Shown here piece by piece: positions 50,333 through 64,000 of a DNA stretch of 64,000 bases. This DNA comes from Acidobacteriota bacterium. GTDB taxonomy: Bacteria > Acidobacteriota > Holophagae > Holophagales > Holophagaceae. The stretch spans positions 372,001-436,000 of the forward strand of contig JACPUT010000006.1 in assembly GCA_016192145.1 (NCBI GenBank), in the 5' to 3' direction. Position 1 is the stretch's first letter. Each line of letters starts with the position of its first letter. Below the pieces are notes generated by a model. It did not search any database and was not told the DNA's origin. It was given only the letters and a program-made list of their open reading frames with translations. Made by a program: the position numbers and the translations under genes.

Positions 50333-50884
50333 ATGGAACGCCGACTCGCCTCCCTCCTCCTGCTCGTAGTCCTCGGGGCCCACGCCCTGGTGAAGGTCCG
50401 GCTCGGCACGCTGCCGGAATTGCTTTGGGCTTGCAACGTGAGCAGCCTCATCCTCGTGGCGGCGCTGTGGTTCGACTGGGCCCCGGGCATGGGCCTCGCG
50501 CTCGTGTGGCACCTCTGCGTGGGGGAACCCGGGTGGATCGCGGGCATCGCCGCCCGGGGCTGGGCCTTCCCGGGGTGGACCTCCGTGGCGGTGCACACCC
50601 TCCCGGCCGCCTTCGCCTTCCTGGCCCTGCGGGGGCGGGGGATGCCCCGGATTTCCGCCTTCTTGGCCCTGGCCATGTTCGTGGCCCTGGTGCCCCCCAG
50701 CCACTACCTCACGCCAGCCCTGTTAAACGTCAACCTCGCCCACCAGCGCCTGGGGTTTCTGGCTTCCCGGTGCTCGGGGAACTGGGATTACCGGCTGGCT
50801 TTCTGTGGGGGGCTGCTGGGCTTCCTTCTGCTGGGGCAGGCCCTGCTCCGCAGGGCGCTGCCCGAGGGCCGAGAGCCCGCCTGA
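50333..50884 (+). CDS. hypothetical integral membrane protein
   Basis: A 183-residue protein (from the ATG at 50333) with about five hydrophobic segments, for example LASLLLLVVLGAHALVKV, VSSLILVAALWFDW, SVAVHTLPAAFAFLAL, ISAFLALAMFVALVP and FCGGLLGFLLLGQALL. The pattern LLWACNVSSL at the second helix recalls small intra-membrane proteins, but I recognise no family. Very short spacing to the divergent barrel gene (50204) implies a compact shared promoter area. Confidence 0.7.
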   Translation: MERRLASLLLLVVLGAHALVKVRLGTLPELLWACNVSSLILVAALWFDWAPGMGLALVWHLCVGEPGWIAGIAARGWAFPGWTSVAVHTLPAAFAFLALRGRGMPRISAFLALAMFVALVPPSHYLTPALLNVNLAHQRLGFLASRCSGNWDYRLAFCGGLLGFLLLGQALLRRALPEGREPA

Positions 50885-50892
50885 AGGGGGGT

Positions 50893-50920
50893 GGCCCACC
50901 CACCTTCTGGAAAGCGGGCC
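50893..50920 (+). promoter_or_regulatory. 28-nt lipoprotein-leader motif, copy 1
   Basis: GGCCCAC (50893-50899), 14 bases including CCA...TGG and AAA, then GCGGGCC (50914-50920), 53 nt before the ATG at 50974. A second hairpin TGCCTCC-GAG-GAGGGGCA follows. Copies with identical total length precede the NHL (60577-60604) and RCC1 (60620-60647) lipoprotein genes. Confidence 0.6.
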
Positions 50921-50973
50921 TGCCTCCGAGGAGGGGCAGGAGGGAGTCTTGGGGATCCACTCCGGAGGATCCC

Positions 50974-52878
50974 ATGTCGCGCCCCGAGCCCCTTCCCCTT
51001 TCCCTCCGCATCACCCGGGCCTGCACCCTCTCGGCGGCCCTGATCCTGGCCGCCTGCGGCGGGGGCGGAGGCGGCAGCAGCCCGGCGCCGCAGCCCGTGC
51101 CGACGCCCACGAAGGTGCTCCAGTCCATCGCCGTCGCTCCGGCGGCCCCCAGCCTCAACATCGGCATGACCTCGGATCTCACCGCCACCGCCAGTTACTC
51201 GGATGGCACCAGCAGCGCCATCGACAATTCCTCGGTCTGGGTGTCGAGCGCGCCCGCCGTGGCGACGGTAAACGACATGGGCATCGTGACGGCGCTGACG
51301 GCGGGGAGCAGCACCATCACCGTGACGAAGGAGGGCATCTCCGGGACCGCCGCGGTTACGGTCAACGCCTCCGCCGTGAGCCTCACCGGCCTGAGCCTCA
51401 ACGCCACCACCCTGCTTCTCTTTCAGGGGGGTGCCACCTATGACCTGACCGCCACGGCGAACTGGTCCAACGGCACCTCCACGGTGCCCTACGACAGCAA
51501 CGTGACCTGGACCTCCACCAATCCTTCGGTGGCCTCCGTCAACGCGAGCGGCGTCGTGGTGCCCGTGGCCCCGGGCACCGCCAACGTCACCGCCTCCGCC
51601 AGCGGCCACTCCGCCACCTGCAATGTGACGGTGCAGGGCTCCGCCCCGACGCTGAGCTCCCTCTCCCTGAGCCCCGCCACGGGTTCTATCACCGTGGGCC
51701 AGACCTTGGATCTCACCGCCACGGCCAACTGGTCCAACGGCACCTCCACCGTGCCCTACGACTCCAACTGCGTCTGGGCCTCCAGCAGCACGGGCGTAGC
51801 CACGGTGAACTCGAGCGGCGTCGTCACGGCCCTGGCCGCGGGCAGCACCACCATCACGGCCAGCGCCGGCGGTCGCACCGCCACCTGCGCCGTGACCGTG
51901 CAATCCCCCGCCGTGACGCTGAGCTCCCTCTCCCTCAGCCCCGCCACCGGAACCCTCACCGGGGGGCAGACCCTGGACATCACCGCCACGGCCAACTGGT
52001 CCAACGGCACTTCCACGGTGCCCTACGACTCCAGCTGCACCTGGACTTCCAGCAGCCCGGCCGTGGCCACGGTGAACGCGGGGGGCGTCGTCACCGCCCT
52101 GGCCGCAGGCAGTACCACCATCACGGCCAGCGCCAGCGGCCGCAGCGCCACCTGCGCCGTGACCGTGCAGGCCCCGGCGGTGTCCCTCAGCTCCCTCACC
52201 TTGAACCCCACCAGCGGAGCCCTCACCGTGGGTCAGACCCTGGATATCACCGCCACGGCCAACTGGTCCAATGGCACCGCCACGTCGCCCTACGACTCCA
52301 GCTGCGCGTGGACCTCCAGCAACCCGGGCGTGGCCTCGGTAAACGCCGGCGGTGTCGTCTCGGCGGTGGCCGCAGGCACGGCCACCATCACCGCCAGCGC
52401 CGGGGGCCGGTCGGCCACTTGCGCCATCACGGTGACCGCCCCCGCGCCCACCTTTGATTCGCGCCTCGTGGGCCGCTGGCAGTGGGTCGGCATGATCAAC
52501 GCCAGCACCTCCGTGGGGAGTTTCTACACCTTCAACGCGAACGGGACCTTCACCTATTCCCTCATCCAGCAGACTTCCTCCGGCTGCATCGCCTACAGCC
52601 AGGTGGTGGCCTACCACGAGGGCACCTTCAGCAGCGTAGGCTCCCTGGACAATCCCTCCTCCGCGGGGCAGATCGTGATGACGTGCAGCACCCACCATGT
52701 GGATTGGACCAACTGCGCCGGCACCTCCACCACCCGCACCACCGCGGTGGATCCCAACGGCAACGCCACGCCCAACCCCCACTTCCACTGGGCCGCCTTC
52801 ATCAACGCGAACACGCTCGCCACCAACCATGGCGATGACTATATGGCGACCGGCACCCTGAACCACGCACGGCAGTAA
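50974..52878 (+). CDS. lipoprotein with five bacterial Ig-like (BIG2) repeats
   Basis: A 634-residue surface lipoprotein. The signal ends in lipobox ALILAACGGGGGG. Five BIG2-type Ig-like repeats of about 85-90 residues follow (about 47 to 490), marked by LDLTATANWSNGTSTVPYDS, VATVNAGGVVTALAAGSTT and ITASA-GR-ATC. The middle three are very similar to each other in DNA as well as protein, indicating recent unit duplication. The C-terminal 140 residues (LVGRWQWVGMINASTS ... GTLNHARQ) form a separate lipocalin-like or adhesin-like domain of unknown function. The ATG follows CCGGAGGATCCC, and the 28-nt leader motif lies 53 nt upstream. Likely an adhesin or matrix protein. Confidence 0.88.
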   Translation: MSRPEPLPLSLRITRACTLSAALILAACGGGGGGSSPAPQPVPTPTKVLQSIAVAPAAPSLNIGMTSDLTATASYSDGTSSAIDNSSVWVSSAPAVATVNDMGIVTALTAGSSTITVTKEGISGTAAVTVNASAVSLTGLSLNATTLLLFQGGATYDLTATANWSNGTSTVPYDSNVTWTSTNPSVASVNASGVVVPVAPGTANVTASASGHSATCNVTVQGSAPTLSSLSLSPATGSITVGQTLDLTATANWSNGTSTVPYDSNCVWASSSTGVATVNSSGVVTALAAGSTTITASAGGRTATCAVTVQSPAVTLSSLSLSPATGTLTGGQTLDITATANWSNGTSTVPYDSSCTWTSSSPAVATVNAGGVVTALAAGSTTITASASGRSATCAVTVQAPAVSLSSLTLNPTSGALTVGQTLDITATANWSNGTATSPYDSSCAWTSSNPGVASVNAGGVVSAVAAGTATITASAGGRSATCAITVTAPAPTFDSRLVGRWQWVGMINASTSVGSFYTFNANGTFTYSLIQQTSSGCIAYSQVVAYHEGTFSSVGSLDNPSSAGQIVMTCSTHHVDWTNCAGTSTTRTTAVDPNGNATPNPHFHWAAFINANTLATNHGDDYMATGTLNHARQ

Positions 52879-52920
52879 TCCATGGAGCTGATCTTGCTCC
52901 AGGGCTGAAGCAGATCGGCA

Positions 52921-52946
52921 GGGCGGGGGCCTTCAGGCCCTCGCCC
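52921..52946 (+). terminator. hairpin after the BIG2 lipoprotein
   Basis: GGGCGGGGGCC and GGCCCTCGCCC form an 11-bp stem (one G-T pair) around TTCA, 42 bases after the stop; the following sequence is CCATTC, so the terminator lacks a strong T-tract. The rest of the gap to 53102 shows nothing else. Confidence 0.55.
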
Positions 52947-53102
52947 CATTCACGGGCGGGAATGGGTTTCCGGCTACCCTGGGACCCACTCCCCAGGCCG
53001 CGACATGCCCTCCCCTCCAGGTAACGATTCCCCTATCCCGGGTTCAGAACCGACATGGCCATGCACCGCAAGCACGCCTGCGAGCCTGAGGGGCCGGCAG
53101 TC

Positions 53103-54554
53103 ATGAGCGTCTGGAAACCCACGCTCTTCCTGGATCCGAGCCGTTCCGAGCCCGTCTACCTCCAGATCGCCCACGCGCTCATGCGGGAGATCAGCCGGGG
53201 GCGCCTGAACCCGGGCGATGCCCTGCCGGGCTACCGCACCCTGGGCGAACAGCTGGGCATCAGCCGCAATACCGTGATGTCCGCCTACCGGGAGCTGCAG
53301 GCGGAGGGGTGGGTGATCTCCACGCCCGGTGAGGGCAGCGTGGTGGCACCGGATCCACCCATCCGCGTCTCCGCGGATCCCAAACAATCCGCACCGGCCA
53401 TGGGTTTCGACCTTCCGGGTGCCGCCGATCCCGAGTCCGTGACGACCCCCGGGAGCCTGCTCAAGGTGGCCAGCGGCCTGCCGGATCCCCGCCTCCTGCC
53501 CGGCGCGGAGCTGGCCCGGGCCTACCGCCGGGCGCTCACGTTGAACGCCCAGGCGAACCTCCTCATCGAGGATCCGCAGGGCCATCCCAAGCTGCGGGAA
53601 TCCCTGGCGCGCATGCTCGCATCCACGCGGGGCATCCCGGCCCAGCCCGAGCAGATCCTCATCACCCGGGGGAGCCAGATGGCCCACTTCCTCGCGGCCC
53701 AGGCGCTCATGAGCCCCGGCGATGGCGTGGGCGTGGAGGCCCTCGGGCACCGCGGCGCCTGGGAGGCCTTCGCCCAGGCGGGCGCGCGCAACCTCCCGAT
53801 CCCCGTGGATGCCCAGGGGATGCGCGTGGAAGCCCTGGCGGAGCTGCTGCGGTTTGAACCCATCCGCGCCGTCTTCGTCACGCCGGACCGCCACTACCCC
53901 ACGCTGGTCCCCCTCTCGCCCGAGCGCCGCGCACGCCTCATGGCCCTCGCCCGGGAGCACCGCTTCGCCGTGCTGGAGAACGCCCAGGACACCGAGTTCC
54001 AGTTCGAGGGGCGGGCCCTGGCGCCGCTGGCGGCGGAGGATCCCGGGGGCGTCGTCGTCCATGTGGGCACGCTCAGCAAGATCTTCAGCCCCAACCTCCG
54101 GCTGGGCTTCGTGCATGGGCCCCTGCCGCTGGTGAAGCGCATGACCGCGCTGCGCCAGGCGCTGGATCGCCAGGGCGACATGGTGCTGGAGCGGGCCTTC
54201 GCGGAGCTCATCGACGATGGCGAGATCCTGCGCCACCTGAACCGGATGCACCAGTCCTACCGCAAGCGGCGGGACGCCCTCTGCGAATCGCTGCGCAAGC
54301 ACCTGGGCGACGTGCTCACCTTCAAGGTGCCCGTGGGGGGCCTCGCCCTCTGGGCGGAGGTGGCGGAAGGCATCGATGTGGATCGCTGGGCGGCGCGGGC
54401 CCTGGAGGGCGGCGTGGCCTTCCGTTCCGGCCGCCACTTCTCCTTCGATGGCAGCGCCGTGCAGGGCCTCCGCATCGGCTTCTCCAACTATTCGGAACCG
54501 GAACTCGAAGAGGTGGCCATCCGCATGGCCGCCGCCCTGAAGGAATCCCCATGA
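53103..54554 (+). CDS. MocR/GntR-type transcription regulator with aminotransferase fold
   Basis: A 483-residue regulator. The N-terminal winged helix (about 10-80) is GntR type: PVYLQIAHALMREISRGRL, GYRTLGEQLGISRNTVMSAY, LQAEGWVIST. The remaining 380 residues form a fold-type I aminotransferase domain with the PLP-lysine region VGTLSKIFSPNLRLGF. MocR proteins use PLP or amino-acid-related ligands to control nearby genes, for example in vitamin B6 or amine metabolism. The start at ATG 53103 is favoured by GAGGGG upstream; an ATG at 53055 is in frame. The stop overlaps the start of a Ser/Thr kinase gene (ATGA), an unusual pairing. Confidence 0.92.
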   Translation: MSVWKPTLFLDPSRSEPVYLQIAHALMREISRGRLNPGDALPGYRTLGEQLGISRNTVMSAYRELQAEGWVISTPGEGSVVAPDPPIRVSADPKQSAPAMGFDLPGAADPESVTTPGSLLKVASGLPDPRLLPGAELARAYRRALTLNAQANLLIEDPQGHPKLRESLARMLASTRGIPAQPEQILITRGSQMAHFLAAQALMSPGDGVGVEALGHRGAWEAFAQAGARNLPIPVDAQGMRVEALAELLRFEPIRAVFVTPDRHYPTLVPLSPERRARLMALAREHRFAVLENAQDTEFQFEGRALAPLAAEDPGGVVVHVGTLSKIFSPNLRLGFVHGPLPLVKRMTALRQALDRQGDMVLERAFAELIDDGEILRHLNRMHQSYRKRRDALCESLRKHLGDVLTFKVPVGGLALWAEVAEGIDVDRWAARALEGGVAFRSGRHFSFDGSAVQGLRIGFSNYSEPELEEVAIRMAAALKESP

Positions 54555-57500
54555 GCCTTCCCCTCGCCCCCCTCGACGGCCGCATCACGCTAAAGGGCCC
54601 CCTCGGGGCCGGAGGGATGGGCGAGGTGCACCGGGCCTGGGACTCCGCCCTGGAGCGCCCCGTGGCCGTGAAGTTCGTGCGGGGCAGCGATCCGAAGGAG
54701 GCGGACCGGCTGTTGCTGGAGGCCCGCCTCCAGGCCCGGGTGGAGCATCCCCACGTGGTGCGGGTGCACGACACCGGCACCTTGGAGGGTCGGCCCTGCA
54801 TCGTGATGCAGCTGGTGGAGGGCCGCACCTTCGCCGAGCTGGGTCCGACCTCCGAATGGCAAGTGAAGGTGGCCCTCGCCGCCCAGGCGGCCCGGGGCCT
54901 GGGCGCGGCCCACCGCACGGGCCTCGTGCATCGGGATGTGAAGCCCGCCAACATCCTCGTGGAGGATGCGGAAGCAGGTCCCGAGGCGCGCCTCTCGGAC
55001 TTCGGCCTGGCGCGGGATGACGAGGGCGGCCTCACGCGCTCGGGCCTGCTGGTGGGCACCGTGGATTTCATGGCGCCGGAACAGGTCACCGGCTCGGCGC
55101 CCGTGGATTTCCGCGCGGATATCTACGGCCTCGGCGCCACGCTCTACGCGGTGCTCACGGGGCGCCCCCCCTTCCGCGCTTCCCAGGGCCTCACGGCGGC
55201 GGCTCCCGACACCCGGGATCTCCAGGGGGACACGCCGGCGGGGGAACTGCATCCCGGCGACTTCCTGCGGCGGATCCTGGAGGAGGAACCCAGGCCCCTC
55301 ACCGGGCTCGCGCCGGACTTGCCGAAGGATCTCGCGGTGGTGGTGGCCAAGGCCATGGAGAAGGATCCCGCCCGGCGCTACGGCACCGCCGAGGCCTTCG
55401 CGGAGGACCTGGATCGGGTGCTCCGGGGGGAACCCGTGCTGGCCCGGGCCATCGGCCTGCTGGAGCGGGGCGGGCGCTGGGCGCGCCGCTATCCCATCCC
55501 CGCGCGCACCCTCGGCACCGTGGCGGCCTTGGCGTTGGCTGCCCTGGCTTTCGCAGGCTGGACCTCCTTCCGCTCCCGCACCCAGTCCCTGGAGGCCGCG
55601 CGCATGGGCTCCCTGGCGGAGGGCATGGTCAACTCCCTGCGCATGGCTTACCTCTCCCCGGCCTTCGATCAAAAGCCCGTGCTCGCGGGCATCCGCGCCC
55701 AGGTGGATCACCTGCGCGCCCGGCCCATGGGCGAGGTTTCGCCGGCGGGCCTCTTCGTGGTGGGCAAGGGCCTGGAGGCGCTCGGCGACGACGACGGTGC
55801 GCGACCCTACCTCGAGGCCGCGTGGGCCCAGGGCTTCCGCACGCCGGAAGCCGCGGAGAGCCTGGGCTTCCTTCTGGGCCGCCTCTACTTCAAGGCCATG
55901 GATCGAGCCCGGGAATCCCTCGCGCCGAAGGCGCGGGAGCGTCGCGAGGCCGAAGCCAAGGCCACCTTCCTCCAACCGGCGACGGAACTCCTCCAGCAGG
56001 CCGCGGGCTCGGGCTGGCAGCGCGCCTACCGGGAGGCCTACCTCCTCTACCTCCAGGGGCGCTTCGAGGAGAGCCGCGCCAAGGCGGCGCTCGTGCTGCA
56101 GGAGGATCCCTCCCGCTACGAGGCCCTCCGCCTCCAGGCCACCACCGATGAGCGGGAGATCAGCACCGCGTTCCAGACGGGGAAGACGGAAGGCGTGCAG
56201 GCCCGCATCGATGCCATGGGGAGCCGGGTGGACGAGGCCCTCCGCTGGGGGCGCAGCGACCCGGCCCTGCTCAAGCTGAAGGCCCGGAATCTGCACTTCC
56301 AGGCGGTGCTCCTGCGGCTCGCGGGGAAGGATGGCGCCGAGCTGCTCGCCCGGGAGGAGGGCATCATCCAGCACCTCCAGGCGCTGGAGGGCGACAGCTT
56401 CGGATCCCTCGTCAGCCAGGGGAACGTGTGCTGGGAGCGCTCCAATGCCGCCCGGGACAGCCACCGGGAGCGGATGCCCGGTTTCCTGCGCAGCGCCGCC
56501 GGGTTCTACCGCCGCGCCGCGGACCTCGCGCCTGGCGATGTGGGCGTCCGCAATACCCTGGCCCTGCTCTGCGTGGATTGGATGCTGCTGCTCAAGATGC
56601 AGGGACAGCCCCGCGAAGAGCCCCTGCGCATCGGGCTCAAGGCCACCGAGGAGGGAGAGAAGCTGGGCCCGAACATGGCCCGCTCCCGCTTCGTGGCCAT
56701 GCAGTTGAACCGGGGGGAAGGCGAGGCCCTGGATGATGAGGGCGGGGATGCGGAAGCCGTTTACCGCCGCGGCATCCAAAAGGCCGGGTCGCTCAAGGTC
56801 ACGGAGGGGCCCGATGCCCTTCAGCTGGACTCGCACCTGGCCTACCTCCATGGCCAGCTGAGCCGCGTCGTGTTCCGCAAGGGCGGGGATCCCGATCCCG
56901 AGATCGCCCAGGCCGCCGAGGCGGCGCGGCGCATGCGCGAACACCTCGATCTGAAGAGCGTCGAGGCCGTGTTGAACTGGAACGAGGTCGTCACCAACGT
57001 GGCCGACGCCATGGTGGAGTTCGGCGGAGACCCCAAGGCGCTGCTCGATCTGGCCCGGGCGACCTCGGATGAAGCCATCAAGCTCCGGCCGGATGCCATC
57101 GTCCTGGTGATCGCGAAGGTGCCGCTGCTCTCGGTGGAAGCCTCCCGGTGCGTCCAGGCGGGAGTGGATCCCGCGCCGATCCTCGCGGAGATGGCCGCGC
57201 GCCTGGAGCAAACCAAGGGGCCCTTCGGCAGCACCATCGTCTTTTGGCAGACCCGGGCCCTCCACGCCGTCATCGAGGGCGAGGCCCTGGCCCGGCAAGG
57301 CAGGGACCCGGCCAAGGGGTACCAGCGGGCGAGGCCGATCCTCGAGGAGATGGTGCGCAAGTTCCCGGGCTTCCCCTGGTCCGCGGCCTACCTCGTGCAT
57401 CTGCCGGTGCTGGAGGCCCGGTGGCGGCACGGCCAAAAGCTGCCCTACGCCCACCTCGCCCAACCCAGCCTCCGGTCGGCCGAGCAGATCGTGGTGAAGT

Positions 57501-57691
57501 TCCCCCGGGGCATCCAGACCTGGGTGGATCTCGCGGCCCTGAGGGCCATGGCCGGCAACCCCAAGGGGGCCAAGGAGGCCTGGGACAAGGCCCTCGCCCT
57601 GAACCCCCGGGCGCCGGACCTGCCGGACTACAGGGGCGTCCGTGAGCTCGTCTTCGCGGAGGAACCCATGGCCACGCGGGCCTCCAGGTAG
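54551..57691 (+). CDS. Ser/Thr protein kinase with large helical C-terminal domain
   Basis: A 1046-residue membrane-anchored PknB-type kinase. The catalytic domain (about 10-285) has GAGGMGEVHRAWD, PVAVKFVRGSD (Lys), VHRDVKPANILV, DFGLARDDEG and MAPEQVTGSAPVDFRADIYG. A membrane helix at about 318-338 (TLGTVAALALAALAFAGW) precedes roughly 700 residues of alpha-helical repeats, TPR-like (for example GLEALGDDDGARPYLEAAW and YLLYLQGRFEESRAKAAL). The ATG overlaps the stop of the MocR regulator. The kinase is distinct in sequence from the one at 42269-45049. It converges with the NHL lipoprotein gene, 47 bp between stops. Confidence 0.91.
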   Translation: MSLPLAPLDGRITLKGPLGAGGMGEVHRAWDSALERPVAVKFVRGSDPKEADRLLLEARLQARVEHPHVVRVHDTGTLEGRPCIVMQLVEGRTFAELGPTSEWQVKVALAAQAARGLGAAHRTGLVHRDVKPANILVEDAEAGPEARLSDFGLARDDEGGLTRSGLLVGTVDFMAPEQVTGSAPVDFRADIYGLGATLYAVLTGRPPFRASQGLTAAAPDTRDLQGDTPAGELHPGDFLRRILEEEPRPLTGLAPDLPKDLAVVVAKAMEKDPARRYGTAEAFAEDLDRVLRGEPVLARAIGLLERGGRWARRYPIPARTLGTVAALALAALAFAGWTSFRSRTQSLEAARMGSLAEGMVNSLRMAYLSPAFDQKPVLAGIRAQVDHLRARPMGEVSPAGLFVVGKGLEALGDDDGARPYLEAAWAQGFRTPEAAESLGFLLGRLYFKAMDRARESLAPKARERREAEAKATFLQPATELLQQAAGSGWQRAYREAYLLYLQGRFEESRAKAALVLQEDPSRYEALRLQATTDEREISTAFQTGKTEGVQARIDAMGSRVDEALRWGRSDPALLKLKARNLHFQAVLLRLAGKDGAELLAREEGIIQHLQALEGDSFGSLVSQGNVCWERSNAARDSHRERMPGFLRSAAGFYRRAADLAPGDVGVRNTLALLCVDWMLLLKMQGQPREEPLRIGLKATEEGEKLGPNMARSRFVAMQLNRGEGEALDDEGGDAEAVYRRGIQKAGSLKVTEGPDALQLDSHLAYLHGQLSRVVFRKGGDPDPEIAQAAEAARRMREHLDLKSVEAVLNWNEVVTNVADAMVEFGGDPKALLDLARATSDEAIKLRPDAIVLVIAKVPLLSVEASRCVQAGVDPAPILAEMAARLEQTKGPFGSTIVFWQTRALHAVIEGEALARQGRDPAKGYQRARPILEEMVRKFPGFPWSAAYLVHLPVLEARWRHGQKLPYAHLAQPSLRSAEQIVVKFPRGIQTWVDLAALRAMAGNPKGAKEAWDKALALNPRAPDLPDYRGVRELVFAEEPMATRASR

Positions 57692-57738
57692 CGAAGGTCA
57701 CCCGCCCCGGCGGCGGTGTCCGCCTGCTTGGGTGCCTC

Positions 57739-60522
57739 CTACGGCGCCGTGGCCAGCATCAGCCCGTTGAGGGTGGTGACGAGGAGGTCTCCTTGGGGCG
57801 TGAAGGCGAGGCCCGTGGGGGAGTTCAGCCCGGCGGGGAAGGGGCCGGTGAAGGCGCCGGGGAGGGAGGGGGTTCCCAGGAGGAGGGCCGTGTTGCCGGT
57901 GGCCGTATCGACGGTAAATACCGCATGGCCCCAGGCATCGGCCACATGGAGCGTGCCTGCGCCGTCGAAGGCCAGGGCCGCGGGCCCGTAGATGAAGGTG
58001 CTGAGCGCCAGCGTGGTCACCTCGCCGCTGGGCGTGACCTTGCGGATCCGGTTGTTGTTCAGATCCCCCACGAAGAGGTTGCCCAAGCCGTCGACGGCGA
58101 TGCCGCTGGGCATGTTGAAGCGGGCGGTGGCGCCATTGCCATCCGCCAGCCCCGCGTTGCCCGCGGATCCGGCGAGGGTCGTCACCACGCCCGCGGGCGT
58201 GACCTTCCGGATCGTCTGGTTGCCGGAATCGGTGACGTAGAGGTTGCCCGTGCCATCCGCGGCGACTTTGGAGGGGTAGTAGAAGCGGGCTGCGGATCCC
58301 GTGCCGTCGGCGCTGCCGGAGACTCCCGAAAGACCGGCGAGGGTGGAGACGACGCCCGCGGGCGTGACCTTCAACAGGGTCTGGTTGGGGCCGTCGGTGA
58401 CGTAGAGGTTTCCGGCCGCGTCCAGGGCCAATCCCGTGGGGCCGGCGAGGCCCGCAGGGCCGGCGAAGGTGGTGGTCTGCCCCGTGGGCGTGATCCTGCG
58501 GATGCAGCTGTTCCCATAGTCCGCCACGAAGGCGTCGCCGCTGGCGGCCACCACCACGGAGTTGAGATCCGCGAAGCGCGCCGAGGTGCCGAAGCCATCC
58601 GTGAGGCCCGCCCGGGGAGGGGCCCCGGCGAAGGTGCTGAGCCCCAGGGCCATGTCCAGGAGGCGCACGGCGTGGTTCCCCTCATCCGCGATGGCGAGCT
58701 TTCCCGAGGGGAGGAAGGCCAGGCCCGAGGGAGCATAGAATCTCGCCGAGGCGGCGGGACCATCCACCCAGCCGATGCTGGGGGCTCCGGCGGCGGTGGT
58801 GACGACCCCCGCCGGAGTCACCTTGCGGAGCATCGCGTTGGCATCGGAGACCCAGAGATCCCCGGCCCCGTCCACGGTGAGGCCGCGGGGCACGTAGAAC
58901 CGGGCGGAGGCTCCCGTGCCATCCGTCGTGGCAGCTAGACCCGCGCTTCCGGCCAGGGTGGTGACCACGCCTCCTGAGGTCACCTTCCGGAGGGTGTGGT
59001 TCAGGTAATCGGTCACGTAGAAATCGCCATCGGGATGGGCCACGACGGCGCTGGGATAGTTGAAGCGGGCGGCGGCGCCGATGCCATCGGCCGAGCCGCT
59101 GAGGCCCGCGCCGCCGGCGAGGGTGGTGACCCCGCCCGCGGGCGTCACCTTCCGGAGCAGGTGGTTGCCGAAATCCGCGACGATCAGATCCCCCGCCGGC
59201 GTCACCGCGAGGGCGATGGGGCGGCGGAAGCGGGCCGCCGGGCCGGTGCCATCGACGGAGCCCTGGGAACCGGCGGACCCGGCCAGGGTGGAGACCACGC
59301 CCGCGGGCGTCACCTTGCGGAGGGTCTGGTTGTTGGCGTCGGCCACGTAGACGTTGCCCGCGCCGTCGATGGCGAGGCCGGCGGGATTCCGGAAGCCGCC
59401 CGGCGCGCCATCGGAGCTGCCTGATTCGCCCGGGCGGCCCGCGAAGGTGGTGACGATTCCGGCCGGGGTGATCTTCCGGATCGTGTGGTTGGCGCTATCG
59501 CTGATGTAGAGGTTGCCCGCGGCATCGGCCACCGCGCCCTGGGGCTGGTTGAACCGCGCCGCGGAGCCGGTGCCATCCCGCCAGCCGGGCCCATCCACGT
59601 TGCCCGCGAGGAGGTCCAGCCCCCGGGCGGCCACGGAGAGGGAGGCCTGGCTGGCGCCCTTGAGGTTGGTGGCCGTGAAGGTGTAGTTCGTCCGGCGCAG
59701 GGGCCAGGCCTGGGAGGTGCCGGATTGGCTCAGGGGGAGCCCCGCGCCATTGATGTCCAGGGCGGAAGCGGGATCCCCGGAGGTAGCCCAGGTCAAGGTG
59801 ACGGGATCGCCCATGGTCACCCCGGCAGGCGCCGCGAAGGTGGCGATCACGGGGGCCGCGCCGATGACGGTGAGGTTCAGCTGCTTGCCCAGGGTACCGC
59901 CGCTGTTGGTGGCGGTCACCGTGTAGGCCTGGGGCGCGGCGGCGGCCGTGGGCGTGCCGCTCAGGACGCCGGTGGCGGGGTTCAGGGCCAGGCCCGCGGG
60001 CAGGGCGGGGGTGATGCTCCATGCCACCACGGCGCCGCCGGTGCTCGTGGGGGTGAGGGGCGGGAGCGCGGCGTCCTTGCCGATGACGAGGTCGGTGCTG
60101 GCGTAGTCGAAGGCCGGGGCCACGTCGTTGACGGTGAGGGCCAGGTTCGCCGTCACGCTGCCTCCGGCGTTGGTGGCCCGCACGGCGTAGGTGGCCGTGG
60201 CGCTTACCGCCGTGGGCGTGCCCGTGAGGGCGCCCGTCGCGGGGCTCAGCGTGAGCCCCGGAGGCAGGGGAGGGGTCACCGTGAAGCTGACGGGGCTCGC
60301 GGAGGCCACGGTGGGCGTGTTCGCGGCGATGGCCGACCCCTTCACGTAAACGGCGGGGTTGAGGGGATAGGCGAGGCCCGTGGGGGCGGGGGCCGCCGGG
60401 CTCGCGGCGGAACCGCCGCCGCCCCCGCAGCCGGGAACCATCATCCCCAGCGAGAGGGCCAGGGCGGCCTGTCGGAGGCCGGCGGAGGGAATGCGGGGTG
60501 AGGGGAACACGGGCGTGGTCAT
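57739..60522 (-). CDS. lipoprotein with putative Ig-like domains and NHL repeat propeller
   Basis: A 927-residue surface lipoprotein. The signal has a lipobox-like LSLGMMVPGCGGGGG. Residues about 45-330 contain putative Ig domains (LPPGLTLSPATGALTGTPTA and LPAGLALNPATGVLSGTPT, He_PIG-like). From about 340 to 900 come around ten NHL-type repeats (FNQPQGAVADAAGNLYISDS, NHTIRKITPAGIVTTFAG and similar), each near 56 residues, as in six-bladed or larger NHL propellers. NHL proteins often mediate binding; the ligand is unknown. The ATG at 60522 follows GGAGG, with the 28-nt leader motif 55 nt upstream. It is divergent from the RCC1 lipoprotein gene. Confidence 0.88.
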   Translation of the reverse strand: MTTPVFPSPRIPSAGLRQAALALSLGMMVPGCGGGGGSAASPAAPAPTGLAYPLNPAVYVKGSAIAANTPTVASASPVSFTVTPPLPPGLTLSPATGALTGTPTAVSATATYAVRATNAGGSVTANLALTVNDVAPAFDYASTDLVIGKDAALPPLTPTSTGGAVVAWSITPALPAGLALNPATGVLSGTPTAAAAPQAYTVTATNSGGTLGKQLNLTVIGAAPVIATFAAPAGVTMGDPVTLTWATSGDPASALDINGAGLPLSQSGTSQAWPLRRTNYTFTATNLKGASQASLSVAARGLDLLAGNVDGPGWRDGTGSAARFNQPQGAVADAAGNLYISDSANHTIRKITPAGIVTTFAGRPGESGSSDGAPGGFRNPAGLAIDGAGNVYVADANNQTLRKVTPAGVVSTLAGSAGSQGSVDGTGPAARFRRPIALAVTPAGDLIVADFGNHLLRKVTPAGGVTTLAGGAGLSGSADGIGAAARFNYPSAVVAHPDGDFYVTDYLNHTLRKVTSGGVVTTLAGSAGLAATTDGTGASARFYVPRGLTVDGAGDLWVSDANAMLRKVTPAGVVTTAAGAPSIGWVDGPAASARFYAPSGLAFLPSGKLAIADEGNHAVRLLDMALGLSTFAGAPPRAGLTDGFGTSARFADLNSVVVAASGDAFVADYGNSCIRRITPTGQTTTFAGPAGLAGPTGLALDAAGNLYVTDGPNQTLLKVTPAGVVSTLAGLSGVSGSADGTGSAARFYYPSKVAADGTGNLYVTDSGNQTIRKVTPAGVVTTLAGSAGNAGLADGNGATARFNMPSGIAVDGLGNLFVGDLNNNRIRKVTPSGEVTTLALSTFIYGPAALAFDGAGTLHVADAWGHAVFTVDTATGNTALLLGTPSLPGAFTGPFPAGLNSPTGLAFTPQGDLLVTTLNGLMLATAP

Positions 60523-60576
60523 GGCGCCTCCAGGGGTTGGAAGCTCCAACCTACGGCGCATCCCCTCGGGGCCATG

Positions 60577-60604
60577 GGCCCGCTTTCCCGAAAGGAGGTG
60601 GGCC
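60577..60604 (-). promoter_or_regulatory. 28-nt lipoprotein-leader motif, copy 2
   Basis: Minus strand: GGCCCAC (60604-60598), a 14-base middle with TCC...GGG and AAA, then GCGGGCC (60583-60577), ending 54 nt before the NHL lipoprotein ATG. A second small stem CCCCGAGGGG follows. Confidence 0.6.
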
Positions 60605-60619
60605 GGATGCGGCCGGGGT

Positions 60620-60647
60620 GGCCCACGCCGTTTCGCGGAAGCGCACC
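60620..60647 (+). promoter_or_regulatory. 28-nt lipoprotein-leader motif, copy 3
   Basis: GGCCCAC (60620-60626), a 14-base middle with CCG...CGG and AA, then GCGCACC (60641-60647), ending 59 nt before the RCC1 lipoprotein ATG. It is the most divergent copy at its 3' end but keeps the length and inner hairpin. Confidence 0.55.
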
Positions 60648-60706
60648 TGGGGGCCGGGCCGGCCGCGTTCGATGCTGAACCCAATCCACCCCACCCCGGA
60701 GTTCCC

Positions 60707-62233
60707 ATGCCGCGACGATCCCTTCCCATTCGCTCCTCCCTGGCGTCCGCCTTCGTCCTTACCTTCCTGGCCTGCGGCGGGGGCGGAGGCGATACCAAAA
60801 CCACCCCGCCCCCGGTGCCGGGCCCGCACCTCAGCAGCTCGCCCGCGGCCCAGGCCGGCTATGTGGGGGATCAGGTCACCTACCGCGTGGTGGCCGATGG
60901 CAGCGGCCTCAGCTACCAGTGGCTGAAGAACGGCACCGCGATCCCCTCGGCCACCACGGACTCCCTGGTGGTGACGGTGGCCGGGGCCGATGACCAGGCC
61001 CGCTTCAGCGTCCGGGTCACGGCTTCGGCAGGGGGCCTCACCACGAGCCCCGAGGCGATCCTCGACGTGCTCTGGGCCGATCCCGCCGTAATGGCGGGCC
61101 ACGATCATGCCCTGGCCATCACGACGAAGGGCCGGGTCTACGCCTGGGGCGTGGGAGGGAATGGGCAGCTGGGCTTGGGGGATTGGCAGGCCCGCACGAC
61201 GCCCACCCTCGTGAACCTCCCGGCCCCCGCCGTGCGGGTGGCCGCGGGCTGGGGCCACTCCATGGCCCTGCTCAACGATGGCCGCGTCTTCACCTGGGGG
61301 GCGAACACCAAGGGCCAGCTGGGCCATGGCACCACCACGCCGAGCAATGCCCCCGCCGCGGTGAGCGGACTCACCAACGTGGTCTACATCCTCGCCGGCT
61401 ACGACCACAACCTGGCCGTGAAGGGGGATAACAGCGTGTGGTTCTGGGGCTACAACTCCCATGGGCAGCTGGGGCTCGGCGACAAGGTGGACCGCCTCAG
61501 CCCCACCTTGTCCGCCCTCAACGCGGCGGCGCTCACCGATGCGGCCCTGGGGGCCCTGCATTCGCTGGTCCTCGGCGGTGGCACCGTCTATGGCTGTGGG
61601 GACAACGGCTATGGGCAGCTGGGCCTGACCTACTCGCCCTCCACGGAGTATCTCTCGTGGACGAATCTGGGGGTGAACGCCCAATCCATCCGCACCTTCT
61701 CGCTGTACTCGACCCTCATTGGAACCAACGGCCTCCCCTACGGCACGGGCGAAAACGTCTACGGCCCCCTCGGGGATGGCAGCCAGACCACGCGCTACGG
61801 GTGGGTGCCCATGAGCACGGCGGGCCTGGGCGGGAACCTCGCGGCCGTGGTGCCCGGTCAGTACCACACGCTCCTGCTCGGCGACGCGGGCACCGCCTCG
61901 GTGGGCTACAACTGGTACGGCCAGCTCGGGCTGGGAGCGGCGTCCACCACCTCCAGCACCAGCTCCCAGGCCATCCCGAGCCTCACCGCCATCCAGGCCA
62001 GCGCGGGCTACTGCTCCTCCTACGCCGTGCTGGCGAACCTCACCGTGAAGGCGTGGGGCTACAACGGCAATGGCCGCCTGGGGGATGGCACCGCCACGGA
62101 CCACGCGACCCCCACCCTCGTGCCCGGGCTCTTCCTGGGCCCCCTCCCCACGGGGGTGACGCCTCCGGCACCGGTGACCCCGGGCCTCGTCAAGGCGAGC
62201 CGCCTCAGCCCAGCAGCCGCCGCCAACCCCTGA
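60707..62233 (+). CDS. lipoprotein with Ig-like domain and RCC1 repeats
   Basis: A 508-residue surface lipoprotein with lipobox VLTFLACGGGGG, an Ig-like domain (about 35-120, VADGSGLSYQWLKNGTAIPS) and six or so RCC1 repeats (about 125-480): HALAITTKGRVYAWGVGGNG, HSMALLNDGRVFTWGANTKG, HNLAVKGDNSVWFWGYNSHG, HSLVLGGGTVYGCGDNGYG and later copies. RCC1 propellers are common in secreted bacterial proteins of unknown ligand. GGAG lies 5 nt before the ATG at 60707, and the 28-nt motif is about 60 nt upstream. Its last 29 bp overlap the 3' end of the convergent anti-sigma gene. Confidence 0.88.
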   Translation: MPRRSLPIRSSLASAFVLTFLACGGGGGDTKTTPPPVPGPHLSSSPAAQAGYVGDQVTYRVVADGSGLSYQWLKNGTAIPSATTDSLVVTVAGADDQARFSVRVTASAGGLTTSPEAILDVLWADPAVMAGHDHALAITTKGRVYAWGVGGNGQLGLGDWQARTTPTLVNLPAPAVRVAAGWGHSMALLNDGRVFTWGANTKGQLGHGTTTPSNAPAAVSGLTNVVYILAGYDHNLAVKGDNSVWFWGYNSHGQLGLGDKVDRLSPTLSALNAAALTDAALGALHSLVLGGGTVYGCGDNGYGQLGLTYSPSTEYLSWTNLGVNAQSIRTFSLYSTLIGTNGLPYGTGENVYGPLGDGSQTTRYGWVPMSTAGLGGNLAAVVPGQYHTLLLGDAGTASVGYNWYGQLGLGAASTTSSTSSQAIPSLTAIQASAGYCSSYAVLANLTVKAWGYNGNGRLGDGTATDHATPTLVPGLFLGPLPTGVTPPAPVTPGLVKASRLSPAAAANP

Positions 62234-62972
62234 ACCGGGGCGGGCCTTCGCTCCACACCAGCACGAGGCAGTCGCCGGGCCCAGCCCCCACGGGGGCGTG
62301 GGCCTGGCCCGGCGCGTAGGCGCGGAGGTCGCCGGAGGCCACCAGATCGGGGCCGTCGAAGGTGCGCCCCTCCAGCACCAGGGCCACCTCGGCACCCCCG
62401 TGGCGGTGCTCCGGGAAGCGCCTGCCCTCGGGCAGCACCAGCAGGCTCAGGGCCCGGTTCCCGATGCGCAGCACCTCGGCCACCCGGCTGCCGCTCAGCC
62501 CGAGGCTGTGCCAGGCCCAGCGGGCTTCGGGATCCAGGCGGGCCCGGAGGGCGGCTCCCAGCGCATCGCCGGCTACGGGTTGGAAGGGGGTGGCGCTGCC
62601 CCGGGCGGCGCGGCAGCTTTCGCAGCGGCCCAGGTGGGCCCCCAGGAGCAGGGCGAGGCTGGGATCCTGGGCGGCCTGGCTCCAGAGCGCCTCGGCGGGA
62701 TGGAAGGTGGGCTGGAGGCCTTCCTTGGCCTGGATGCGCCCAAGGGCCCCCTGAAGCAGATCCTCCAGGCCCTCCGGAGCCACGGGTTCCCGCAGCGTGA
62801 GCCCCGAGAGCGCCTTGGGCAGGGCCCGCAAGCTGGCCAGGAAGGCCCGGCAGGGGGGGCACATGGCCAGGTGCGCCTTCATCCGGAACCTCAAGCCCGG
62901 GCGCAGGGCGCCCTCCTCGAACTCGGTGAGGAGCCCGATGGCGTCTCGGCAGGTGAGGAACAGGGCGGTCAT
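62205..62972 (-). CDS. ChrR-like cupin anti-sigma factor
   Basis: A 255-residue zinc-binding anti-sigma factor. Two HxxxCxxC zinc motifs are visible, HLAMCPPCR (about 35) and HLGRCESCR (about 120), the first matching a zf-HC2/anti-sigma domain. The C-terminal cupin (about 170-245) has FPEHRHGGAEVALVLEG and GDLRAYAPGQAHAPVG with the metal-binding His and Glu residues. ChrR-type proteins inhibit their ECF sigma until singlet oxygen or related stress acts. The ATG overlaps the sigma stop (ATGA). The 3' end overlaps the convergent RCC1 gene by 29 bp. Confidence 0.88.
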   Translation of the reverse strand: MTALFLTCRDAIGLLTEFEEGALRPGLRFRMKAHLAMCPPCRAFLASLRALPKALSGLTLREPVAPEGLEDLLQGALGRIQAKEGLQPTFHPAEALWSQAAQDPSLALLLGAHLGRCESCRAARGSATPFQPVAGDALGAALRARLDPEARWAWHSLGLSGSRVAEVLRIGNRALSLLVLPEGRRFPEHRHGGAEVALVLEGRTFDGPDLVASGDLRAYAPGQAHAPVGAGPGDCLVLVWSEGPPRFRGWRRLLG

Positions 62973-63571
62973 GGTCGATTTCCGGGGGCGAGGTCCTGCA
63001 GGAAGGTCCTCATGGCGAGGCGGGCGCGGTGGAGGCGCTGGCGGACGAGATCCCGGGTGATCCCCAGTTTCGCCGCGATCTCGTCCGTGTCCCACCCTTC
63101 GAGGTCCTTTAGGACGAAGGCCGCGCGCTGGTCGTCGGTGAGGCGATCCAGGGCGGCCCGGACCCTCCCCCGGATCTGGGCCGCCTCCACCCGGTCGAGG
63201 GCTTCGGGGGCTTCGCTCCAGGCGAGGACCTTGTCCTGATCCATGTGATGCCCGCCGTCGTCGAACTGTGGCTGGAAATCTTCCACGGCGTCCTCGCGGC
63301 GACGGATGCGCTTGCGCCGGGCCATCAATGCCTGGTTCACGCAAACCCGGTAGGCCCAGGTGCTGAACTGGCTCTGGCCCTGGAAGGCGGGCAGTTCCCG
63401 GTGCAGCGCCACGAGGGCGTCCTGCAGCGCGTCCTGGCTCTCGGCCTCGTTGCCGAGGATGCGGTCGATGGCCCGGAAAAACATGGGCAGATGGGGCCGC
63501 ACGAGCTCCCCGAAGGCCTCCGGATCCCCGGTGCGGGCCCTGACGAGCGGTGCCTCGGGGGCGAGGGTCAT
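62969..63571 (-). CDS. ECF sigma-70 family RNA polymerase sigma factor
   Basis: A 200-residue extracytoplasmic function sigma factor. Region 2 (about 25-95): FFRAIDRILGNEAESQDALQ, FSTWAYRVCVNQALMARRKR. Region 4 (about 135-190): LDRLTDDQRAAFVLKDLEG, AAKLGITRDLVRQRLHRARL. An acidic linker with DDGGHHMDQ lies between them. It is coupled by 4-bp overlaps to the upstream sensor kinase and to the downstream ChrR-like anti-sigma factor, which probably controls it; singlet-oxygen or oxidative stress is a plausible signal by analogy with RpoE-ChrR. Confidence 0.94.
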   Translation of the reverse strand: MTLAPEAPLVRARTGDPEAFGELVRPHLPMFFRAIDRILGNEAESQDALQDALVALHRELPAFQGQSQFSTWAYRVCVNQALMARRKRIRRREDAVEDFQPQFDDGGHHMDQDKVLAWSEAPEALDRVEAAQIRGRVRAALDRLTDDQRAAFVLKDLEGWDTDEIAAKLGITRDLVRQRLHRARLAMRTFLQDLAPGNRP

Positions 63572-64000
63572 CGGGGGAGGCCCTCCAGGGAGGGGGCCGG
63601 GGCCTCGCCGGGCTGGGGGGCCGGGATGCGGGGCAGGCGCAAGGTGAAGGTGGAGCCCAGGCCCGGGCCCCGGGAGGCGACCCGGATCTCGCCGGAGTGG
63701 CGCTCCACGATCTCCCGGGTGAGGAAGAGGCCGATGCCCGTGCCCGGCACCTGGCGCGTCATCTCATCGCCCACCCGATAGAAGCGCTGGAAGAGGCGGG
63801 GCAGCTCCTTGGCGGGGATGCCGACGCCCTGATCCTGGACGACGATGATCACCTCTTCCGCGGAGCTCCCCAGGGTGACGGTGGTGGTGCGGGGCGGGTG
63901 GGCGTACTTGAAGGCGTTGGTGAGCAGGTTCTCCACCACGGTGGCGAGCTGCTTGGCATCGGCCATCACCCAGAGGCCCTGGCCCAGGTTCAACTGCATC
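63568..64000 (-). CDS. sensor histidine kinase, C-terminal part (cut by window edge)
   Basis: The last 144 residues of a histidine kinase whose N-terminus lies beyond 64000. The ATPase domain shows the N box ENLLTNAFKYAHPP, G1 DQGVGIP, F box FQRFYRVGDE and G2 GTGIGLFLTREIVERHSG. The Met at 63999 is internal, not a start. It ends in a Pro-rich tail (APQPGEAPAPSLEGLPR). Its stop overlaps the ECF sigma ATG (ATGA), so kinase, sigma and anti-sigma form one tightly coupled operon. Confidence 0.88.
   Translation of the reverse strand, partial: MQLNLGQGLWVMADAKQLATVVENLLTNAFKYAHPPRTTTVTLGSSAEEVIIVVQDQGVGIPAKELPRLFQRFYRVGDEMTRQVPGTGIGLFLTREIVERHSGEIRVASRGPGLGSTFTLRLPRIPAPQPGEAPAPSLEGLPR

Follow-up and report, generated by a model that had tools for sequence, protein, structure and literature searches.

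A conserved 28-bp promoter element upstream of surface lipoprotein genes in Holophagaceae, probably an operator of a linked MocR-type regulator

Three surface lipoprotein genes in a Holophagaceae genome are each preceded by the same 28-nt motif, which raises two questions: is the motif an RNA structure or a DNA site, and what reads it? The locus lies in a 64,000-nucleotide stretch of the genome, referred to as the window. The initial annotation favoured a cis-acting RNA in the 5' UTR with a compensating inner hairpin and named a paired operator as the alternative. The features of the locus are as follows.

50893 to 50920, plus strand: candidate 28-bp operator, copy 1, from the genome pattern search and the 44-site alignment
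50944 to 50949, plus strand: -10-like element of copy 1, GAGTCT, with the conserved A at 50945 and T at 50949
50974 to 52878, plus strand: lipoprotein gene, 634 aa, LAACGGGGGG lipobox, Big_2 Ig-like domains
53055 to 54554, plus strand: MocR-type regulator, 499 aa, GntR winged helix-turn-helix (wHTH) and class I/II aminotransferase domain
54551 to 57691, plus strand: Ser/Thr protein kinase, 1046 aa, C-terminal TPR
57739 to 60522, minus strand: lipoprotein gene, 927 aa, GCGGGGG, NHL repeats and He_PIG domains
60548 to 60553, minus strand: -10-like element of copy 2, TAGGTT, from the conserved A/T columns of the 44 sites
60577 to 60604, minus strand: candidate 28-bp operator, copy 2, divergent partner of copy 3
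60620 to 60647, plus strand: candidate 28-bp operator, copy 3, from the genome pattern search and the 44-site alignment
60671 to 60676, plus strand: -10-like element of copy 3, GATGCT, from the conserved A/T columns of the 44 sites
60707 to 62233, plus strand: lipoprotein gene, 508 aa, LACGGGGG, RCC1 repeats

The motif consists of GGCCCACCCACCTTCTGGAAAGCGGGCC at 50893-50920 (+), 53 nt from the ATG at 50974, GGCCCACCTCCTTTCGGGAAAGCGGGCC at 60604-60577 (-), 54 nt from the ATG at 60522, and GGCCCACGCCGTTTCGCGGAAGCGCACC at 60620-60647 (+), 59 nt from the ATG at 60707. All three copies are thus present with the positions and strands first assigned to them, and the measured distances agree with the claimed range of about 53-59 nt. 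Copies 2 and 3 are divergent and separated by 15 bp. The flanks of copy 1 also match conserved letters, a T at 50892 and CTG at 50920-50922. Each of the three downstream products carries a signal peptide ending in (A/G)C-GGGGG. Between copies 1 and 2 sit the MocR and kinase genes, which are placed in one operon because the kinase start overlaps the MocR stop; the MocR gene is not divergent from a site in the window. Near the RCC1 lipoprotein gene, an ECF-sigma-like gene (62969-63571, -) and a histidine-kinase-like gene (63568-63999, -) were named by eye from sequence.

The genome-wide pattern search proposed in the initial annotation gave a divided result. As written, GGCCCAC-N14-GCGSRCC has further exact matches on contigs C4, C6 and C10 of the 3.8-Mb genome, and with two mismatches it yields more than 1,000 matches, little above the reversed control, so that the loose form is useless by itself. 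The tightened pattern GGCCCACNNNNNTTCNNGRAAGCGSRCC, which adds the inner letters that all three copies share, returns exactly the three window copies from the whole 3.8-Mb genome at 0-2 mismatches; at three mismatches, 2 additional matches appear vs 3 in the reversed-pattern control. When the -10 element described below is included in the pattern, one unlinked site is added in the same genome, at C6:174540-174597 (-), upstream of a gene for a secreted protein of 349 aa. This site was at first a weak match of the site model in the window's own genome (G000) and proved to be a full site. A Pfam search with the 349-aa protein gave no match, and the protein partly resembles the product of a secreted-protein gene adjoining the site cluster of a related genome (G027). 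All four sites of the genome precede lipoprotein or secreted-protein genes.

The absence of the motif from relatives would have counted against the initial annotation; instead, it is conserved. With the tightened pattern, clusters were located in two genomes of the same family, G021 and G027; they lie upstream of ACGGGGG lipoprotein genes and include a divergent pair like 60577/60620. An ungapped alignment of eight sites covers the 28-mer and extends to an A and a T, four bases apart, that are likewise invariant. A profile built from these eight sites, using the 28-mer and the downstream A/T part, located a site beside the orthologous genes in G031 and additional sites in the first genomes. 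It then gave 35 sites in 25 Geothrix/Holophagaceae loci (one of the 25 repeats the G031 locus), with 0 in reversed sequence. A scan with the 28-mer part alone gives 44 distinct sites. Of these, 32 precede a CGG-lipoprotein gene, with an ATG distance of 51-54 nt in 25 of the 32, and 11 of the remaining 12 stand before genes whose products have signal-like or membrane segments of other kinds, as judged by a crude hydrophobicity rule. The motif is therefore a real, conserved regulatory element, and the regulon claim is upheld, the same element preceding lipoprotein genes across Geothrix/Holophagaceae. Matches with 2-3 mismatches in G005, G008, G011, G016, G018, G038 and G048, which lack lipoprotein context, were rejected as chance, as were weak model matches in G013 and G054 on reading them. 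In three genomes, a site divergent to another site (L114 7887, +; L127 15242, -; L135 14435, -) precedes the gene of a small, conserved membrane protein (M[VI]V[VI]I[VI]LVVLAALVLPFIGGHITQSNRTP) rather than that of a lipoprotein.

The 44 sites share the consensus gGTGGCCCAgsCccTTTC-n3-rAAGCGtrCCTgg, followed by mostly unconserved sequence up to +51 and then by gANcCTg. The A at +53 is found in 41/44 sites and the T at +57 in 40/44; neither position played a part in the 28-mer scan, and 8 of the 44 are the sites where the A/T columns were first noticed. The spacer between the 28-mer and this element is nearly random, at about 0.11 bit per column. A-N3-T corresponds to the two most conserved positions of the bacterial -10 element, and its fixed spacing 3' of the 28-mer points to a -10-like element. 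The start of transcription would then fall downstream of the motif, at a predicted position of about +64, some 36 nt 3' of the 28-mer (about 50956 for copy 1, 60541 for copy 2 and 60683 for copy 3), and the 28-mer itself would be promoter DNA spanning roughly -63 to -36. The predicted leaders of the window genes are about 18-24 nt long and contain a ribosome-binding site. A scan of 50600-61000 with the sigma-70 consensus found no promoter, so the -10 assignment rests on conservation and not on consensus.

This geometry bears directly on the RNA reading, in which the 5' UTR would carry a riboswitch or a leader hairpin that binds a protein. The ends of the window copies can indeed pair (GGCCC/GGGCC), and the motif keeps a fixed distance to the start codon; the latter is accounted for by the stereotyped promoter geometry. 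Against it, the predicted start lies 3' of the motif, which is half of what the initial annotation had named as its refutation, and the proposed pairing does not rise above shuffles over the 44 sites: 56.6% of cells are paired vs a shuffled mean of 57.6%, and the covariation score is 0.056 vs 0.063. Outer-stem pairs 3, 4 and 6 (columns 7/30, 8/29 and 11/26) fail to form in 23, 33 and 34 of the 44 sites, and the inner stem is paired in just 37.9% of cells. The inner-stem pairs that had been named for the three copies are in different registers, and their apparent compensation results from chance and register shifts. An Rfam search of the window returned no family at the gathering threshold. The hairpin interpretation is thus very improbable, and it is the alternative of the same annotation, the paired operator, that gains support. 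A dyad-like DNA operator can look like an RNA hairpin if just three copies are seen.

The conservation pattern also weighs against a repeat or promoter cassette without function, spread by recent duplication of lipoprotein genes. Such an origin would suit the clustering of these genes and their common lipobox style, but conservation across the 44 divergent sites is confined to the 28-mer, the bases next to it and the -10, with a nearly random spacer between, and the downstream proteins of the window have unrelated folds (Big_2, NHL, RCC1). It is dismissed here as highly unlikely.

If the 28-mer is a DNA operator, its distribution suggests the reader. Of 60 related genomes, the own one included, 4 (G000, G021, G027 and G031) encode a MocR orthologue of at least 68% identity, and in 4/4 a kinase orthologue adjoins the MocR gene, with sites beside both. 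A sequence-only model of the 44 sites has strong matches (E <= 7e-8) in exactly these four genomes, an overlap expected from chance placement at 1/C(60,4), about 2e-6. In the 56 genomes that lack a MocR orthologue, among them four congeners of G021, G027 and G031, this model gave no strong match, the best being 2.4e-4; as it includes sites of the four genomes, the model tests absence elsewhere rather than presence. In a search of eight genomes, the pattern extended by the -10 has 0-1 mismatch matches just in the same four, and none in four congeners of G021, G027 and G031 without a MocR orthologue. Many of the sites in the Geothrix/Holophagaceae loci are divergent from a MocR gene, the usual MocR divergon (PMC5320631), and the operator lies in the promoter of the putative target or divergent gene, as expected for a MocR operator. 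Four orthologue loci (L136, L142, L145 and L149) contain no site; several of them end at contig ends. A MocR operator is expected to contain repeated boxes in direct or inverted orientation. Such symmetry is at most suggestive in this one: 40/300 column permutations were as good for the inverted and 141/300 for the direct form, neither of which is significant.

Almost every site is no more than about 10 kb away from a MocR gene, and the co-presence of sites and MocR could partly reflect the inheritance of one gene island. The unlinked C6 site and the related sites beside paralogues argue against the island as a full explanation. Diverged versions of the site (GGTCYA...GGAYC) directly adjoin paralogous MocR genes: in the own genome, an untargeted pattern search gave weaker matches at C5:165499, upstream of a gene divergent from a kinase-MocR pair, and at C1:461169, about 90 bp from a MocR gene, and related sites are found beside MocR paralogues in G001, G013, G023 and G029. 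These paralogue sites point to MocR proteins as the readers of this motif class. As a separate observation, the site at G000:C1:461169-461226 (L116) runs on into an inverted TAGACCA box (TGGTCTAT...GGATCTTTTGAATAGACCA), as does its G001 homologue, a layout that resembles the two-direct-plus-one-inverted arrangement common for MocR.

The same evidence limits the reading in which the operator belongs to another transcription factor, an unlinked response regulator or a sigma factor, with MocR as a passenger of the island. This reading draws on the concentration of most sites in one island, on the nearby ECF-sigma-like gene at 62969-63571, and on the fact that we infer the binding of MocR from sequence. 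It is nevertheless unlikely: MocR is the DNA-binding gene adjoining the sites in every genome with strong matches, related sites stand immediately beside MocR paralogues in the same genome and in other genera, and inspection by eye of the surroundings of the L113 and L114 clusters revealed no ECF-like gene.

The preferred explanation, to which a probability of roughly 0.83 is given, is that the motif is a 28-bp DNA operator in a stereotyped promoter, with the MocR protein encoded at 53055-54554 as its most likely binder and probably as an activator of surface lipoprotein genes. The promoter would be ordered as operator, about 23 bp, -10 (consensus gANcCT), a leader of about 18-24 nt with the ribosome-binding site, and ATG. 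A MocR dimer would occupy the DNA that leads up to the -35 region and help RNA polymerase at a weak promoter, probably as an activator. Activation would occur when the aminotransferase-like domain is in the right ligand state, and the surface lipoprotein genes would be turned on as a set. Possible targets of the kinase are the regulator itself or functions of the envelope.

By domain make-up the regulator is a MocR protein, one of four encoded in the own genome. It has a GntR wHTH (Pfam PF00392, 1.4e-17, residues 35-97) and an aminotransferase domain (PF00155, 1.4e-20), and residues 23-435 match GabR (4n0b, 1.5e-34). The PLP Schiff-base lysine, K342 in GTLSK, aligns with GTFSK of 1x0m and is invariant in the 4 orthologues. 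The Glu-Asp-Asp PLP-contact motif, present in most MocR aminotransferase domains, is not universal in the family, since YczR has its Glu replaced (PMC4944035). It has no match in the window regulator, which reads Glu-Asn-Ala (residues 308-312), and the orthologues carry Glu-Asn-Asp or Glu-Leu-Asp instead; the sensing site may therefore differ from that of the usual MocR.

Activation is considered probable because the operator stops where the -35 region is predicted and both promoter elements, -35 and -10, fit the sigma-70 consensus poorly. The same operator could instead serve chiefly for repression, with induction by PLP or an amino-acid adduct, as for EnuR. EnuR operators overlap the promoter core (PMC8739950), and here the operator reaches the predicted -35 region; it lies, however, upstream of the -10 without covering it, and a promoter so far from consensus suits an activator such as GabR, PdxR or TauR, all characterised as activators (PMC5320631). 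Repression is thus possible but rather doubtful. It differs from the activator reading in the sign of control alone, and the confidences of the two overlap.

Elsewhere, and in other genera too, paralogues of MocR and of the Ser/Thr kinase again stand side by side, in either order: in G000:C5 (L115 9003-13312), G005:C12 (L121) and G023:C85 (L122). They form a recurring two-gene module in Holophagaceae. In L149 (8986-14104) and L136 (11467-14970), the MocR gene is followed by a tandem pair of such kinase genes. A broader proposal is offered tentatively, as one that may well prove wrong: a MocR whose PLP site has changed would form a two-gene sensory module with the Ser/Thr kinase transcribed along with it. 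After many rounds of duplication and re-targeting in Holophagaceae, every copy would have its own operator variant and a fast-changing set of surface or secreted targets. If true, kinase signalling would here meet an aminotransferase-like sensor in one system for remodelling the cell surface.

To our knowledge, the operator sequence matches no MocR operator. Searches of the open-access literature found no MocR-kinase operon controlling surface lipoproteins and nothing relevant on MocR with Acidobacteria, protein kinases or lipoproteins; a MocR regulon of surface lipoproteins with a linked kinase thus appears to be undescribed. Transcriptional regulation in Geothrix and its relatives, which include iron reducers, is little studied, and for these bacteria the analysis provides a candidate operator, a promoter geometry, a putative regulator and a target list. 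It would extend MocR regulation from metabolism to surface lipoproteins, and the connection it suggests between a Ser/Thr kinase and a transcription factor with an aminotransferase-like domain can be tested directly.

Among known systems, the MocR/GabR subfamily (GabR, PdxR, TauR, EnuR; Suvorova & Rodionov 2016, PMC5320631) has in common with the window regulator the GntR wHTH with an aminotransferase-like domain and PLP lysine, a promoter-proximal operator with a conserved TGG group, a regulator often divergent from its target, and few targets. Most MocR regulons with an assigned role are metabolic, and the same source mentions neither Acidobacteria nor lipoproteins (PMC5320631). The subfamily targets belong to PLP, GABA, taurine or ectoine metabolism, whereas the predicted targets here are surface lipoproteins, and the regulator, unlike those of the subfamily, is co-transcribed with a Ser/Thr kinase. 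For PdxR, the window regulator is barely above the family cut-off (NCBIfam NF052282; 323.9 vs 320, a margin of 4 bits). PdxR controls genes of PLP biosynthesis and salvage, and the predicted targets are not pyridoxine genes; the genes that follow the four own-genome sites do not fit a PdxR. YczR-YczE (PMC4944035) is similar in that a MocR protein is proposed to control membrane or envelope proteins of unknown function from an adjacent operator. YczE, however, is an integral membrane family, whereas the system described here would combine diverse lipoproteins with a kinase partner.
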